Notes under the pieces: generated by a model
The model's input: only the letters and a program-made list of their open reading frames with translations
The model's database searches: none
Told to the model about the DNA's origin: nothing
Shown: in pieces, positions 5,841 to 27,155 of the stretch
Layout: every line of letters starts with the position of its first letter
Numbering within the stretch: position 1 is the first letter of the stretch
DNA from: Chloroflexota bacterium
GTDB lineage: Bacteria; Chloroflexota; Anaerolineae; Anaerolineales; Villigracilaceae
Reading direction: 5' to 3'
Assembly (NCBI GenBank): GCA_016235445.1
Contig: JACRLB010000017.1
Coordinates: 62,001 to 126,000, forward strand
Length of the DNA stretch: 64,000 nt
Translations under genes and position numbers: made by a program

Positions 5841-5900
5841 TAATTGGTAAATAGTAATTACCAATTACCAATTACCAATTACCAATTACCAATTACCAAT
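5841..5900. repeat. Heptanucleotide tandem repeat (CCAATTA)n abutting a start codon
   Basis: About six units of CCAATTA run to the base before ATG at 5901, preceded by a mirror copy TAATTGGTAA. The run replaces the ribosome-binding region of the next gene. Read in frame it encodes NYQLPIT heptapeptides. Confidence 0.85.
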
Positions 5901-7508
5901 ATGGCAAAAACATCAACCCTCCGAGAATTATTAGGCGATCTGCCCTTCACTGCCGAAATTGACTGGATGCTTCGACAGCGGAATCGTCCGCGCAAAGATC
6001 ATTTCAATTTGGATCGTTTGCAAAAATCCCTGCCTGCGGCGCGCGCGGTGGTTGAGCCGTTTGCAAAAAATGCGAAACCCGGCAAGAATGTTTTGTTTTT
6101 TGCAACACTGCATTATTGGATCGAACAATCTGCTTATCTCGGTTTGACTCTCGCCGGCCTCGGACATAAAGTTACTTTATTGACATTGCCATATTCCGAG
6201 TGGCATAAGCAAAAGGATAACTTCACACAGCGGCAGCGCATCCTTCACACGCGGGATACGCTTGCCCCGCTCTCTCCGTTAGTCAAACACATCTCGATGC
6301 TCGACCTTCAACCTTCAACCTTCAACCTTCCAACCACCCTGCAAGCTGACATAAAAGAGATCTCGCTCTGGGACGCGCAATACACTTTGATGCGCGAAGA
6401 AGTGGACATGAACGACGCGGGCGACCGCGCCTTGTACGACCTGCGGATTCAACGCAACACCTTCGCCGCCAAAGCCGCGTTTGAATATTTACAATCCAAC
6501 AAGCCTGATGTGGTTTTGATACCAAACGGCTTGATTCTCGAAATGGGAATTGTCTTTCGCGTGGCGCGCTACTTGAACATTGACGCTGTTACCTACGAAT
6601 TCAACGACCAGCGTGAACAAATCTGGCTGGCGCAAAATTCGTCCATTATGAAACAGGATACGAATTATCTCGTGGATGCGCGCTGTCAACTCCCAATGAC
6701 CGATGACATGTTCGAGCGCCTCGCAGATTTGGAAAATGCCCGCCGCGGCGCGCGCGTGTGGGGCAAATCAAAACGCCTCTGGCAATATGTCTCTTCGCAA
6801 GGAGCGCAAGAGACTCGTAAAATGCTGAACTTTGATGACCGCCCCGTCGTCATGCTCGCCGCGAATGTCCTGGGCGACAGCCTCACCCTCGGACGTGACA
6901 TCTTCGCCGCCTCGATGACCGAATGGATCACGAAGACTGTCCAATATTTTGCCAGGCGAGCCGATGTGCAACTGGTCATCCGTGTTCACCCCGGTGAAAA
7001 ACTCGTGCCGCAGGCCAAGTCCATGGGGAGGGTTGTCCGCGAGGCCTTGCCAGAACTCCCCAGCCATATTCACGTCATCGGCGCGTTGGACAACATCAAC
7101 ACCTACGACCTGATCGAAATCGCCGATGTTGGGCTGGCGTACACCACCACCGTCGGACTCGAAACCGCGATGAATGGCCGCCCCGTCATCTCTTGCGGCG
7201 AAACGCACTACCGCGGGCGCGGCTTCACCCTCGACCCAAACTCGTGGGACGAATATTACGCCACCCTCGAAAAAGTTCTGGCCGACATCCCTGCCCATCA
7301 ATTGAACGAAAAGCAAACTGAATTCGCATGGAATTATGGCTATCGCTTCTTCTTTGAATACCCGCGTCCCTTCCCCTGGCGTTTGATGAATTTCTGGGAT
7401 GATTTGGAAGTTTGGCCTTTGGAAAGAGTGTTGAGCGAAGAAGGCCTGGCGCAATTCAAAGACACATTCGGGTTTCTGGTGGGTGAGCCGTTTACCTGGA
7501 AAAACTAA
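5901..7508 (+). CDS. Capsule polysaccharide biosynthesis-like protein
   Basis: 535 aa from the ATG at 5901. It has the two-lobed look of a GT-B glycosyltransferase or capsule-processing protein: VLFFATLHYWIEQSAYLG near the start, a middle part with VVLIPNGLILEMG, and a C-terminal lobe with VIRVHPGEKL, IHVIGALDNINTYDLIEIAD and TTTVGLETAMNGRPVI, which match the nucleotide-sugar lobe of capsule-synthesis proteins. No purine-rich ribosome site exists because the CCAATTA repeat reaches the ATG. An upstream in-frame TTG at 5844 would add a repeat-encoded leader; I judge it less likely. A CTTCAAC heptamer run lies inside the gene at 6304-6335. Confidence 0.8.
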   Translation: MAKTSTLRELLGDLPFTAEIDWMLRQRNRPRKDHFNLDRLQKSLPAARAVVEPFAKNAKPGKNVLFFATLHYWIEQSAYLGLTLAGLGHKVTLLTLPYSEWHKQKDNFTQRQRILHTRDTLAPLSPLVKHISMLDLQPSTFNLPTTLQADIKEISLWDAQYTLMREEVDMNDAGDRALYDLRIQRNTFAAKAAFEYLQSNKPDVVLIPNGLILEMGIVFRVARYLNIDAVTYEFNDQREQIWLAQNSSIMKQDTNYLVDARCQLPMTDDMFERLADLENARRGARVWGKSKRLWQYVSSQGAQETRKMLNFDDRPVVMLAANVLGDSLTLGRDIFAASMTEWITKTVQYFARRADVQLVIRVHPGEKLVPQAKSMGRVVREALPELPSHIHVIGALDNINTYDLIEIADVGLAYTTTVGLETAMNGRPVISCGETHYRGRGFTLDPNSWDEYYATLEKVLADIPAHQLNEKQTEFAWNYGYRFFFEYPRPFPWRLMNFWDDLEVWPLERVLSEEGLAQFKDTFGFLVGEPFTWKN

Positions 7509-8464: not shown

Positions 8465-8479
8465 TTGAAAGGAGTAAAC

Positions 8480-8734
8480 ATGAACAGCGTTTGGCAAATT
8501 CAGGATGCAAAAAATCAGCTCAGCGAAGTTATTGCGCGCGCTTTGAAGCAGGGTCCGCAGGTAATTACCCGGCATGGACGAAAGACCGTGGTGGTCGTGT
8601 CTTACATGGAATATAAAGCTCTGCAAAAATCACAGGTGAAGTTTTCCGAGTTTTTTCGTTCCTCCCCACTGGCTGGTTTGGAAATGGATTTAACGCGTGA
8701 TAAAAGCCTGCCCCGCAAAGGTATTGAATTATGA
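8480..8734 (+). CDS. Phd/YefM-family antitoxin
   Basis: 84 aa from ATG at 8480, which has AAAGGAG at the right distance; a TTG at 8465 is in frame but precedes that RBS. The N-terminus WQIQDAKNQLSEVIARALKQGPQVITRHGRKTVVVVS is the classic Phd/YefM DNA-binding fold; the C-terminal tail (LAGLEMDLTRDKSLPRKGIEL) would wrap the toxin. It should bind the 25-bp palindrome upstream. The stop overlaps the toxin ATG (ATGA), so the pair is translationally coupled. Confidence 0.93.
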   Translation: MNSVWQIQDAKNQLSEVIARALKQGPQVITRHGRKTVVVVSYMEYKALQKSQVKFSEFFRSSPLAGLEMDLTRDKSLPRKGIEL

Positions 8735-9153
8735 ACTTTTTGCTTGATACCTGCGTGCTTTCCGAAGCGCTCTCAAAAAAACCAGACTCCAAAGTCCTTG
8801 GCTTTGTGGATGCTCTCGATCCCGATGATGTTTATTTGAGCGTGATCACCATCGGGGAACTCTTCAAGGGAATTGAAAAACTGCCGAATTCGCGCCGAAA
8901 GAACGAATTGCGCGAATGGTTTAATGATGAACTATTGGTTCGGTACGATGGAAAGATTTTTTCATTGGACACTCAAACCCTTATGACCTGGGGAACGCTC
9001 ATCGCCCGGCTTGAATCAGGGGGGTACACGATGCCCGCCGTCGATTCTTTGATCGCTGCGACTGCCATTACTTACGAACTTGTTTTGATCACGCGCAATG
9101 TCGGTGATTTTGAAAAGTCCGGGATAGAGATCATTAATCCGTGGAAAGAATAA
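8731..9153 (+). CDS. PIN-domain toxin (VapC family)
   Basis: 140 aa. PIN ribonuclease: first acidic residue in FLLDTCVLSE (D6), then TIGELFKGIEKL with the conserved Glu, and MPAVDSLIAATAI with the downstream acidic residue, closing with LVLITRNVGDFEKSGIEIINPW. Members cleave tRNA or rRNA when freed from the antitoxin. All active-site acids look intact, so the toxin is probably functional. Its place inside a polysaccharide operon may stabilise that region. Confidence 0.93.
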   Translation: MNFLLDTCVLSEALSKKPDSKVLGFVDALDPDDVYLSVITIGELFKGIEKLPNSRRKNELREWFNDELLVRYDGKIFSLDTQTLMTWGTLIARLESGGYTMPAVDSLIAATAITYELVLITRNVGDFEKSGIEIINPWKE

Positions 9154-10191: not shown

Positions 10192-10260
10192 TTCCATGTG
10201 TCAGCTTCCAAGTGACCTGCGCTTGGCGGCCTGAAAAATATGGAACCTGGAACCTGGAAC
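10192..10260. repeat. GGAACCT heptamer repeat before a start codon
   Basis: Units TGGAACC/TGGAACC/TGGAAC run directly into the ATG at 10261, with a partial mirror copy TTCCATG near 10193. An ATG at 10240 inside the repeat is in frame but would add only repeat-encoded residues. Confidence 0.65.
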
Positions 10261-11178
10261 ATGAAACTTCTTTTAACTGGAGCCAGTGGTTTGCTTGGTC
10301 TCAACTTCGCGCAGGAGATGATGGACCGCCATGAGATCATCGCCGTGGATCGCGGCAAACTGGTGAGCGCGCCCTTCACGGTCTTGAAACAGGATTTGCT
10401 CGACCCCCGCGCTGAAGATACCATCCTCGACTCGGCCCAGCCAGACTGGCTGATCAACTGCGCGGCTCTTGCCGACCTTGATGCCTGCGAGAACAACCCA
10501 GAGCTTGCCAAACTCCTGAACACAGACCTGCCCCGCCGCCTTGCGCGTGCGTGCAAAACGCGGAACATCCCCTTCGTTCACATCTCCACCGATGCCGTCT
10601 TCGACGGCGAGAAGGATGGCTTTTACACCGAAGAGGATAAACCCAATCCGCTCGGCATTTATGCCCGAACCAAATTGGAGGGCGAATGGGCTGTGCTCAC
10701 AGAAAACTCAAAAGCCCTCGTAGCCCGCGTCAATTTTTATGGCTGGAGTTTGGGCGGCAGGCGTAGCCTCGCTGAATTCTTCTTCCACAACCTGAGCAAC
10801 AACAAAAGCATGAGCGGCTTCACCGATGTCGTCTTTTGCCCCATGCTGGTGAACGACACTTCACGAATACTAGCCAGGATGGTAAAGCGCGGCCTGAGCG
10901 GCTTATATCACCTCGTCGGCACACAAGCCATGAGCAAGTATCAATTCGGCGTCGAGATCGCCCGCAAATTCAGCCTGCGCGAGAGCGAGATCACCCCCAA
11001 ATCCATCAGTTTCTCTGGCTTGCTCGCGCGGCGTGCCAACAACTTATGGCTTTCCACCCACAAGTTATCCACAGCCCTCGCCGAGGATTTGCCCGACTTT
11101 TCCACAGGCCTGAACGAGTTTTACACACAGAATCAGCAGGGTTATCCACAGAAAATCCGCAGTTATGCACAGGTGTAG
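10261..11178 (+). CDS. dTDP-4-dehydrorhamnose reductase-like (RmlD/CapF-like) reductase
   Basis: 305 aa from ATG 10261 (MKLLLTGASGLLG begins the fold directly; an in-frame ATG at 10240 is inside the repeat). The RmlD hallmarks are HISTDAVFDGEKDGFYTEED, NPLGIYARTKLEGE with catalytic Tyr/Lys, and VARVNFYGWS. It reduces a 4-keto nucleotide sugar, most plausibly the product of the adjacent 4,6-dehydratase. The 3' end of the gene contains TTATCCACA and TTATGCACA boxes, and its TAG stop lies within a palindrome (11174-11204). Confidence 0.85.
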   Translation: MKLLLTGASGLLGLNFAQEMMDRHEIIAVDRGKLVSAPFTVLKQDLLDPRAEDTILDSAQPDWLINCAALADLDACENNPELAKLLNTDLPRRLARACKTRNIPFVHISTDAVFDGEKDGFYTEEDKPNPLGIYARTKLEGEWAVLTENSKALVARVNFYGWSLGGRRSLAEFFFHNLSNNKSMSGFTDVVFCPMLVNDTSRILARMVKRGLSGLYHLVGTQAMSKYQFGVEIARKFSLRESEITPKSISFSGLLARRANNLWLSTHKLSTALAEDLPDFSTGLNEFYTQNQQGYPQKIRSYAQV

Positions 11179-11342
11179 GGCAAATTGCCAATTTGCCCTA
11201 CACAGTTATCCACAGGATTACGCTACGCTATCCACAGGATACGCTATGCTATCCACAGGATACGCTATGCTATCCACAGGATACGCTACGCTATCCACAG
11301 GATTACGCTACGCTATCCACAGGATACACTTCGTTATCCACT
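11065..11342. repeat. Array of DnaA-box-like 9-mers with 21-22 bp period
   Basis: TTATCCACA occurs at 11065, 11142 and 11206; TTATGCACA at 11163; CTATCCACA at 11228, 11249, 11270, 11291 and 11313; TTATCCACT at 11334. From 11206 on the spacing is 22, 21, 21, 21, 22 and 21 bp, all in one orientation. Between boxes the sequence is GGAT(T)ACGCTA(C/T)GC. The rest of this 369-bp gap (11343-11547) shows no gene I can support. Confidence 0.85.
11174..11204. repeat. Palindrome carrying the stop codon of the reductase gene
   Basis: Arms GTGTAGGGCAAATT and AATTTGCCCTACAC around GCC. The TAG within GTGTAGGG is the stop codon of the gene ending at 11178. Confidence 0.85.
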
Positions 11343-11547: not shown

Positions 11548-12618
11548 ATGGAAATCAAATTTGGAAACCGCACCATTGGCTTGAACCACCCCACCTATTT
11601 CATTGCAGACATTGCCGCCAACCATGACGGCGACATGGACCGCGCCAAACAGTTGATCCGCCTGGCCAAAGAAGCAGGCGCGGATGCGGCCAAGTTCCAG
11701 AATTTCGATGCCCCGAAGATCGTCTCGGATTACGGCTTCAAATCCATGAATGGCGGACAGGTTTCACACCAGGCAAGTTGGAAGAAATCCGTGTTCGAGG
11801 TGTACAAAGGCGCATCCATCCCATTTGAATGGTCGATGACGCTGGTGGAGGAATGCAACAAGGTCGGCATTGACTACTTCTCCTCGCCCTACGATTTTGA
11901 GGCAATTGATTTTCTCGACCAATATGTGGAAGTCTACAAAGCTGGTTCAGGTGAAATTGATTGGATCGAAGCCCTCGAACGCATGGCGGGCAAGGGCAAG
12001 CCTTTCTTCATCGCCACAGGCGCATCCACGATTGGCGAAGTGCAAAAGGCAGTTCACGCGATTTTGAAGATTAACAAGCAATTGGTTCTGATGCAGTGCA
12101 ACACCAATTACACCGCCAGCCCAAATAACTACGACCATTTGCACTTGAATGTCTTGAAGACTTTCGGAACCATGTTCCCCGACGTGATTTTGGGACTTTC
12201 CGACCATACCCATTCGGTCGCCCCCGTCCTCGGCGCGGTGACGTTGGGCGCGCGCGTGATCGAACGTCACTTCACCGATAGCAATGACCGCGAAGGTCCC
12301 GACCACAAGTTTGCGATGAACCCCGAAAATTGGGCGAAGATGGTCGAAGAGACTCGCCTGCTCGAACGCTCGCTGGGAAGCTCCGATAAATTCATCGCCG
12401 ACAACGAGCAGGAAACGCAAATCGTACAACGCCGTTGTCTGCGTGCGGCACGCGAGATCAAAGCAGGCGAAACCTTCGCCCGAGACATGATCGACGTTCT
12501 GCGTCCCGCCACCCCTGGCGCGATCAAGCCTGACCAGATTCAAAATGTCATCGGTACAAAAGCGCTGGCGGACATGCCCCTCGGCAAAGAATTGCGCTGG
12601 ACGGATTTGGGTGCGTAA
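11548..12618 (+). CDS. N-acetylneuraminate synthase (NeuB) family enzyme
   Basis: 356 aa. TIM-barrel part about 1-285 with IADIAANHDGDMDRAKQLI, DAAKFQNF, KAGSGEIDW, and a SDHTHS metal/substrate loop; C-terminal antifreeze-like SAF domain about 290-356 (RRCLRAAREIKAGE, IGTKALADMPLGKELRW). It would condense phosphoenolpyruvate with a six-carbon N-acyl sugar to give a nonulosonic acid in the cytoplasm. RBS AGGAGAA before ATG. The usual companions (aminotransferase, NDP-sugar hydrolase) are missing from the window, so the exact sugar is open. Confidence 0.9.
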   Translation: MEIKFGNRTIGLNHPTYFIADIAANHDGDMDRAKQLIRLAKEAGADAAKFQNFDAPKIVSDYGFKSMNGGQVSHQASWKKSVFEVYKGASIPFEWSMTLVEECNKVGIDYFSSPYDFEAIDFLDQYVEVYKAGSGEIDWIEALERMAGKGKPFFIATGASTIGEVQKAVHAILKINKQLVLMQCNTNYTASPNNYDHLHLNVLKTFGTMFPDVILGLSDHTHSVAPVLGAVTLGARVIERHFTDSNDREGPDHKFAMNPENWAKMVEETRLLERSLGSSDKFIADNEQETQIVQRRCLRAAREIKAGETFARDMIDVLRPATPGAIKPDQIQNVIGTKALADMPLGKELRWTDLGA

Positions 12619-27083: not shown

Positions 27084-27125
27084 AAAAAAAAAGGGAGCGG
27101 CTCACCACTGAGCCGCTCCCTTTTT
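27084..27125. terminator. Bidirectional terminator
   Basis: Stem GGGAGCGGCTCA (27093-27104) and TGAGCCGCTCCC (27109-27120), with an A-run before and a T-run after, so it can end both the + strand ferric-reductase gene and the - strand dnaK transcript. Confidence 0.92.
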
Positions 27126-27155
27126 ACTCATTACTCATTACTCATTACTCGTCCC
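27126..27155. repeat. ACTCATT heptamer repeat
   Basis: Three to four units of ACTCATT between the terminator and the dnaK stop codon; same unit length as the repeats in the polysaccharide locus. Confidence 0.75.

Follow-up and report, generated by a model that had tools for sequence, protein, structure and literature searches.

To our knowledge, clusters of DnaA boxes outside the replication origin oriC are known mainly from Escherichia coli and Bacillus subtilis. The E. coli datA locus carries same-direction boxes near oriC on which ATP-DnaA assembles head to tail (accessible excerpts of PMC5742627), and read-through transcription modulates the resulting complex (likewise in excerpts of PMC10950094); in addition, the concentration of boxes near the E. 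coli oriC favours titration, according to the accessible part of PMC12371093. In B. subtilis, clusters outside oriC (Okumura 2012, as cited in the accessible part of PMC5295017) are thought to lower free DnaA, and removal of all six leads to early initiation; the same part of PMC5295017 also states that these clusters play no significant role. Thermotoga DnaA forms head-to-tail oligomers, and phased boxes are needed at its origin (excerpts of PMC10316083). A literature search, with most subscription papers outside its reach, turned up no work on clusters of DnaA boxes from either Chloroflexi or Anaerolineae. In this report, we describe a DnaA-box array in this little-studied bacterial group that may soak up or switch off DnaA and so prevent premature re-copying.

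The array was found in a window, by which we mean the whole 64,000-nucleotide stretch of the Chloroflexota genome that was analysed, and it comprises 11 DnaA-box-like 9-mers between positions 11065 and 11342, all on the + strand and each with at most one mismatch to TTATCCACA. The relevant features are as follows, with offsets counted from the first box.

10240 to 11178, + strand: rmlD-like sugar-nucleotide reductase gene (RmlD_sub_bind; Pfam PF04321, 207 bits)
11065 to 11073, + strand: coding box at offset 0, TTATCCACA; at most one mismatch in 43/48 loci of the genus and 11/16 loci of other genera
11098 to 11106, + strand: coding box at offset 33, TTTTCCACA; at most one mismatch in 39/48 genus loci and 4/16 of other genera
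11142 to 11150, + strand: coding box at offset 77, TTATCCACA; at most one mismatch in 45/48 genus loci (39 exact) and 16/16 of other genera (14 exact)
11163 to 11171, + strand: coding box at offset 98, TTATGCACA; at most one mismatch in 39/47 genus loci and 16/16 of other genera
11173 to 11203, no strand: palindrome with 15-bp arms, spanning the rmlD stop codon between the boxes at offsets 98 and 141
11206 to 11342, + strand: non-coding array of seven boxes, namely one TTATCCACA (start 11206), five CTATCCACA (11228, 11249, 11270, 11291 and 11313) and one TTATCCACT (11334), at offsets 141, 163, 184, 205, 226, 248 and 269
11548 to 12618, + strand: neuB-like gene, the 3' neighbour of the array (Pfam PF03102 and PF08666)

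The array is thus confirmed as real, and the 9-mers that an earlier note on this DNA had listed as DnaA-box-like and in a single orientation hold up as such. That note placed three boxes in the 3' coding end of the reductase gene and overlooked TTTTCCACA at 11098; four boxes lie there and seven in the gap before the neuB-like gene. Only about 0.04 same-strand boxes would be expected in 278 bp, against the 11 observed, from a background of 0.275 boxes per kb (at most one mismatch) across 1.24 Mb made up of the window and stretches of two relatives, a background slightly inflated by the presence of three of the clusters in that sequence. Within the genome to which the window belongs (4.13 Mb, 55 contigs, 98.3% complete), TTATCCACA occurs 71 times and the reversed pattern 15 times, and among these perfect boxes two or more fall within 1 kb only at the array and at positions 3693-4000 of contig C23. 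Many identical arrays elsewhere, which the earlier note had named as an observation that would speak against a replication role, did not appear: when the array's DNA was used as a query against its own genome, no second array was found and short pieces alone matched. The palindrome at 11173-11203, 19-21 bp pieces of which match elsewhere in the genome, is probably a dispersed repeat outside the array proper; a similar palindrome occupies the same place in one relative (L102).

The array resembles datA in having same-direction boxes outside oriC, apparently at a moderate distance (for datA, 94.7 versus 84.6 min), and in lying 3' of a transcribed operon with its boxes conserved and its spacers diverging (accessible excerpts of PMC5742627, PMC4585315 and PMC10950094). 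In contrast, datA as described in these excerpts is a non-coding locus with five boxes and an IHF site that is essential, whereas the array typically has seven boxes, half of them inside a gene, in a genome with no clear IHF. It is also like the oriC-proximal clusters of B. subtilis in being a DnaA-box cluster outside oriC, but in place of the six clusters given in the part of the source available, one was found here among the genome's perfect boxes, and it is constrained at both the codon and the helical level. The near-oriC enrichment of E. coli, as far as the excerpted source describes it, is a broad rise in density, whereas the array is a single compact phased cluster. DARS1 and DARS2 of E. 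coli are box clusters away from oriC too, and act on the state of DnaA, but their box I is inverted and the array is head-to-tail.

Conservation was assessed across the genus and the family. An rmlD-like protein is present in 50 of 57 genus genomes, including all 32 with completeness of 90% or more and contamination of 5% or less; of the 50 loci examined, 48 were used, since L179 and L180 end before the rmlD 3' end. Every one of the 48 has three or more boxes on the same strand no further than about 330 bp from the first box position, with a median of 7 and a maximum of 11; 42 have at least three past the stop codon, and opposite-strand boxes number 3 in total. This last count bears on a DARS-like site that would reactivate ADP-DnaA, a role raised by the earlier note and compatible with a box cluster away from oriC; because in DARS cores box I must face the other way from II and III (accessible part of PMC5742627), we regard such a role as quite improbable. 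Among the coding boxes, that at offset 77 is the best conserved, and that at offset 98 is TTATGCACA in the window and mostly TTATCAACA in relatives. Outside the genus, the family was sampled with one genome for each of 19 genera; the gene was present in 16 of these genomes, all 16 loci had at least three boxes, mostly at offsets 56, 77 and 98, and just 2 kept non-coding boxes; in other families, nine genomes gave four matches to the gene, with few or no boxes at these places. Thus, the coding part of the array occurs throughout the family, and the complete array mainly characterizes the genus. The boxes are kept in relatives while the spacers diverge: in 13 genus loci that have their layout in common, uniformity is 93% for box columns and 62% for other columns, a comparison that is partly circular, the columns having been picked for holding boxes, and whose informative part is the spacer divergence. 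As a control, a stray TTATCCACA in a phosphoglycerate-mutase-like gene, the one control gene used, was exact once and within one mismatch four times in the best 30 of 50 matches, the window's own genome being among those 30; this stray box lacks conservation, unlike the rmlD boxes.

Codon usage points to selection on the boxes at the DNA level. In 47 genus sequences, the commonest codon is used 60% of the time on average over a baseline of 144 conserved degenerate codon columns upstream, and 1.4% of those columns reach 95%; at the boxes, Ser277 is TCC in 42/42, Ser288 TCC in 47/47, Pro303 CCA in 45/47, Ser308 AGT in 41/41 and Tyr309 TAT in 45/46. After adjustment for degeneracy, the 12 box columns rank above 157 others in the genus (p = 8e-7) and above 16 non-box columns of the rmlD 3' end (p = 8e-4). 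The box-codon excess recurs in the 16 sequences from other genera relative to the whole gene (p = 2e-4) and is non-significant there relative to the same 3'-end codons (p = 0.07), a value that, together with the rarity of non-coding boxes in those genera, counts against a DnaA sink. Protein conservation alone was considered as the cause of the boxes and rejected, because synonymous codon choice is fixed at them, with the reservation that a few non-box codons in that 3' end (E293, F294 and K305) are very uniform too.

The boxes are also phased. Across the genus, 171 non-coding boxes are spread over 54 different offsets with a periodicity of 10.55 bp (R = 0.82); with identical layouts collapsed (38 layouts, 139 boxes), R is 0.81, a value reached by 0 of 2000 random placements in a simulation that takes distinct patterns as independent although the species are related, and distinct offsets only give a best period of 10.60 bp (R = 0.67). 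The positions of the non-coding boxes therefore vary by species yet sit on a 10.55-bp ladder equal to one DNA turn. In the window's species, the spacings from 11206 to 11334 are 22, 21, 21, 21, 22 and 21 bp, near the helical repeat just as had been claimed, and nine of the 11 boxes share one face of the DNA to within 0.22 of a turn, and the first two coding boxes lie off it. The earlier note had also allowed that the array might be a neutral minisatellite merely resembling DnaA boxes. This description stands for the non-coding units of this one species, which are homogeneous (93% matches in Tandem Repeats Finder) in a window where other tandem repeats are common, but it does not extend to a box cluster conserved genus-wide, with its coding part family-wide: near-identical units that are not kept between species occur in the window's species alone, spacers have diverged in relatives, and synonymous sites are constrained. 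Moreover, a 21-bp duplication unit is an incomplete explanation because 80 of 300 successive spacings come close to odd numbers of turns, with the coding 0-33 pair accounting for 34 of the 80. We therefore hold a neutral minisatellite to be very improbable as an account of the array, and likely as the way in which the window's species remade its non-coding boxes. The window's repeat occupies rungs used by relatives (141, 163, 226, 247-248 and 268-269), and its perfect 21-22 bp units look like a local expansion on an older ladder, the boxes perhaps having been rebuilt as tandem units without leaving the existing rungs.

A better candidate for the origin lies elsewhere. The dnaA gene, on contig C5 (29 kb), has no perfect box and three one-mismatch boxes on its contig; its product carries the DNA-binding domain, and two further DnaA-like matches in the genome appear by eye to be helicase-loader-like ATPases. 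Away from dnaA, a site upstream of spoVS (contig C23; L008 3690-4090) has three head-to-tail boxes on one strand, spaced 21 and 20 bp, and on the opposite strand usually a tandem box pair, a GC-rich spacer and then CTACTA repeats. CTACTA was present at 29/29 spoVS loci with enough upstream sequence, among 30 loci read of 50 matches. Tandem boxes, a spacer and DnaA-trios make up the BUS pattern (accessible part of PMC8287927), and the spoVS-upstream site is probably a BUS-like origin. A second or bipartite origin at the array, another of the roles proposed earlier, might be suggested by its many strong boxes and by the noisy GC skew of one relative (G041), but a box followed by CTACTA within 20 bp occurs at 0/48 rmlD arrays versus 29/29 spoVS sites, and a stricter trio search, run on the rmlD arrays alone, gave 0/50. 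The highest AT content in 50 bp is also lower at the arrays (median 0.68) than at the spoVS sites (0.76). In G041, the GC-skew minimum at 543 kb lies close to the spoVS site at 556 kb, with a near-equal minimum at 690 kb, where the keto minimum also falls, and the array, at 792.7 kb, coincides with neither; in G005, sampled GC-skew windows had no clear trend. GC skew is thus weakly informative, compatible but ambiguous in G041, and for this reason the origin call rests mainly on BUS-like anatomy. The rmlD array is probably not the origin, and a second origin there seems highly unlikely.

The array and the BUS-like site share CTATCCACA and the 21-/20-bp head-to-tail spacing. The array is probably transcribed with rmlD, which would suit use of the motifs by another protein or as an RNA element in the mRNA; the identity of the motif with the BUS-like origin boxes and a period that is that of double-stranded DNA speak against such a use, to which we assign little probability. 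In nine genomes the array and the spoVS site share a contig and are 56-464 kb apart, six of these distances coming from contigs too short to show long ones; in the three longest assemblies they are 236, 329 and 354 kb, or about 6-8% of the chromosome. For the genome of the window itself, the two sites are on separate contigs. The rmlD gene reads away from the spoVS site in 8/9 genomes, the exception being G019.

The reading we lean towards, and hold to be somewhat probable, is that the array would be a selected, helically phased DnaA-box cluster outside oriC, serving as an origin-proximal DnaA sink or inactivation site independent of IHF. Its basis in the sequences is conservation, constraint on the DNA, phasing, single orientation, a separate BUS-like candidate origin and a moderate distance on shared contigs. 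A regulatory role of the titration or datA-like kind, raised by the earlier note, is the leading idea. DnaA would occupy the boxes in head-to-tail order along approximately one side of the helix; the array would be copied fairly soon after initiation, and its doubling would remove free or ATP-bound DnaA and delay re-initiation, whether by titration, by promoted ATP hydrolysis or by both. The DnaA complex may be cleared or modulated by transcription that crosses rmlD, comparable to read-through at E. coli datA. An IHF-independent site is favoured because same-direction boxes suit head-to-tail ATP-DnaA assembly and the whole genome has no clear IHF, only one weak HU/IHF-family match (PF00216, 33.5 bits). 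Against this reading, datA needs IHF, and the gene in G019 points toward the origin site. More tentatively, as a possibility that we would not rate as high as even, the array might be an analogue of datA that evolved in this Chloroflexota family and works without IHF, a DnaA-inactivating filament platform established through the helical phasing of at least seven head-to-tail boxes instead of IHF bending, with synonymous sites of the coding 3' end carrying replication-control information. If the preferred reading is true, DnaA sinks or inactivation sites near the origin occur in a further phylum, apparently independently of IHF, and coding sequence can accommodate them; a phase ladder combined with synonymous constraint would then be a simple comparative test for finding such sites elsewhere.

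The main rival is that DnaA acts as a transcription factor or roadblock at the rmlD 3' end and the following gap, tuning or ending transcription of rmlD and neuB/DUF4260. The non-coding boxes occupy the place expected of a promoter or terminator, and neuB follows rmlD in most relatives, directly or past a DUF4260 gene, so that control of the NeuB-like gene is conceivable and a transcriptional role would look similar to a sink. Because neuB and/or DUF4260 was detected downstream of rmlD in 43/50 genus loci, the rmlD-neuB operon is largely conserved. On the other hand, the next gene lies anywhere from 182 to 1567 bp from the first box, depending on the locus, while the boxes stay with rmlD, and in L100 (1200-1345) the neuB start is a remnant that runs into a DUF4260-like tail, next to an intact box cluster. 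At least seven phased boxes, half of them coding, would also seem to exceed the needs of a simple operator, and we consider control of transcription unlikely, compared with the DnaA sink or inactivation site.

Phased box pairs were also sought across the order. The pattern TTATCMACA-N11-13-TTATCMACA matched in 204/301 genomes and its reversed control in none among the matches listed; the window's genome is absent from these matches because its phased boxes begin with C. Among the 39 phased-pair loci read, spoVS is the neighbour at 10 and rmlD at 5, and the remaining 24 are next to neither gene, so that many are probably origins or other clusters. Same-strand phased box clusters were seen beside other genes in two genera of another family (L181, L182 and L189), in two genomes (G332 and G106) such clusters lie about 29 kb from a second phased-pair site, and in G059 one (L238) is near a gene resembling dnaA by eye. 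Within the window, the polysaccharide locus also contains a Phd/YefM-PIN type toxin-antitoxin pair (8465-9153), and heptamer tandem repeats of differing sequence occur at 2512-2543, 5856-5900, 6304-6335 and 27124-27150.
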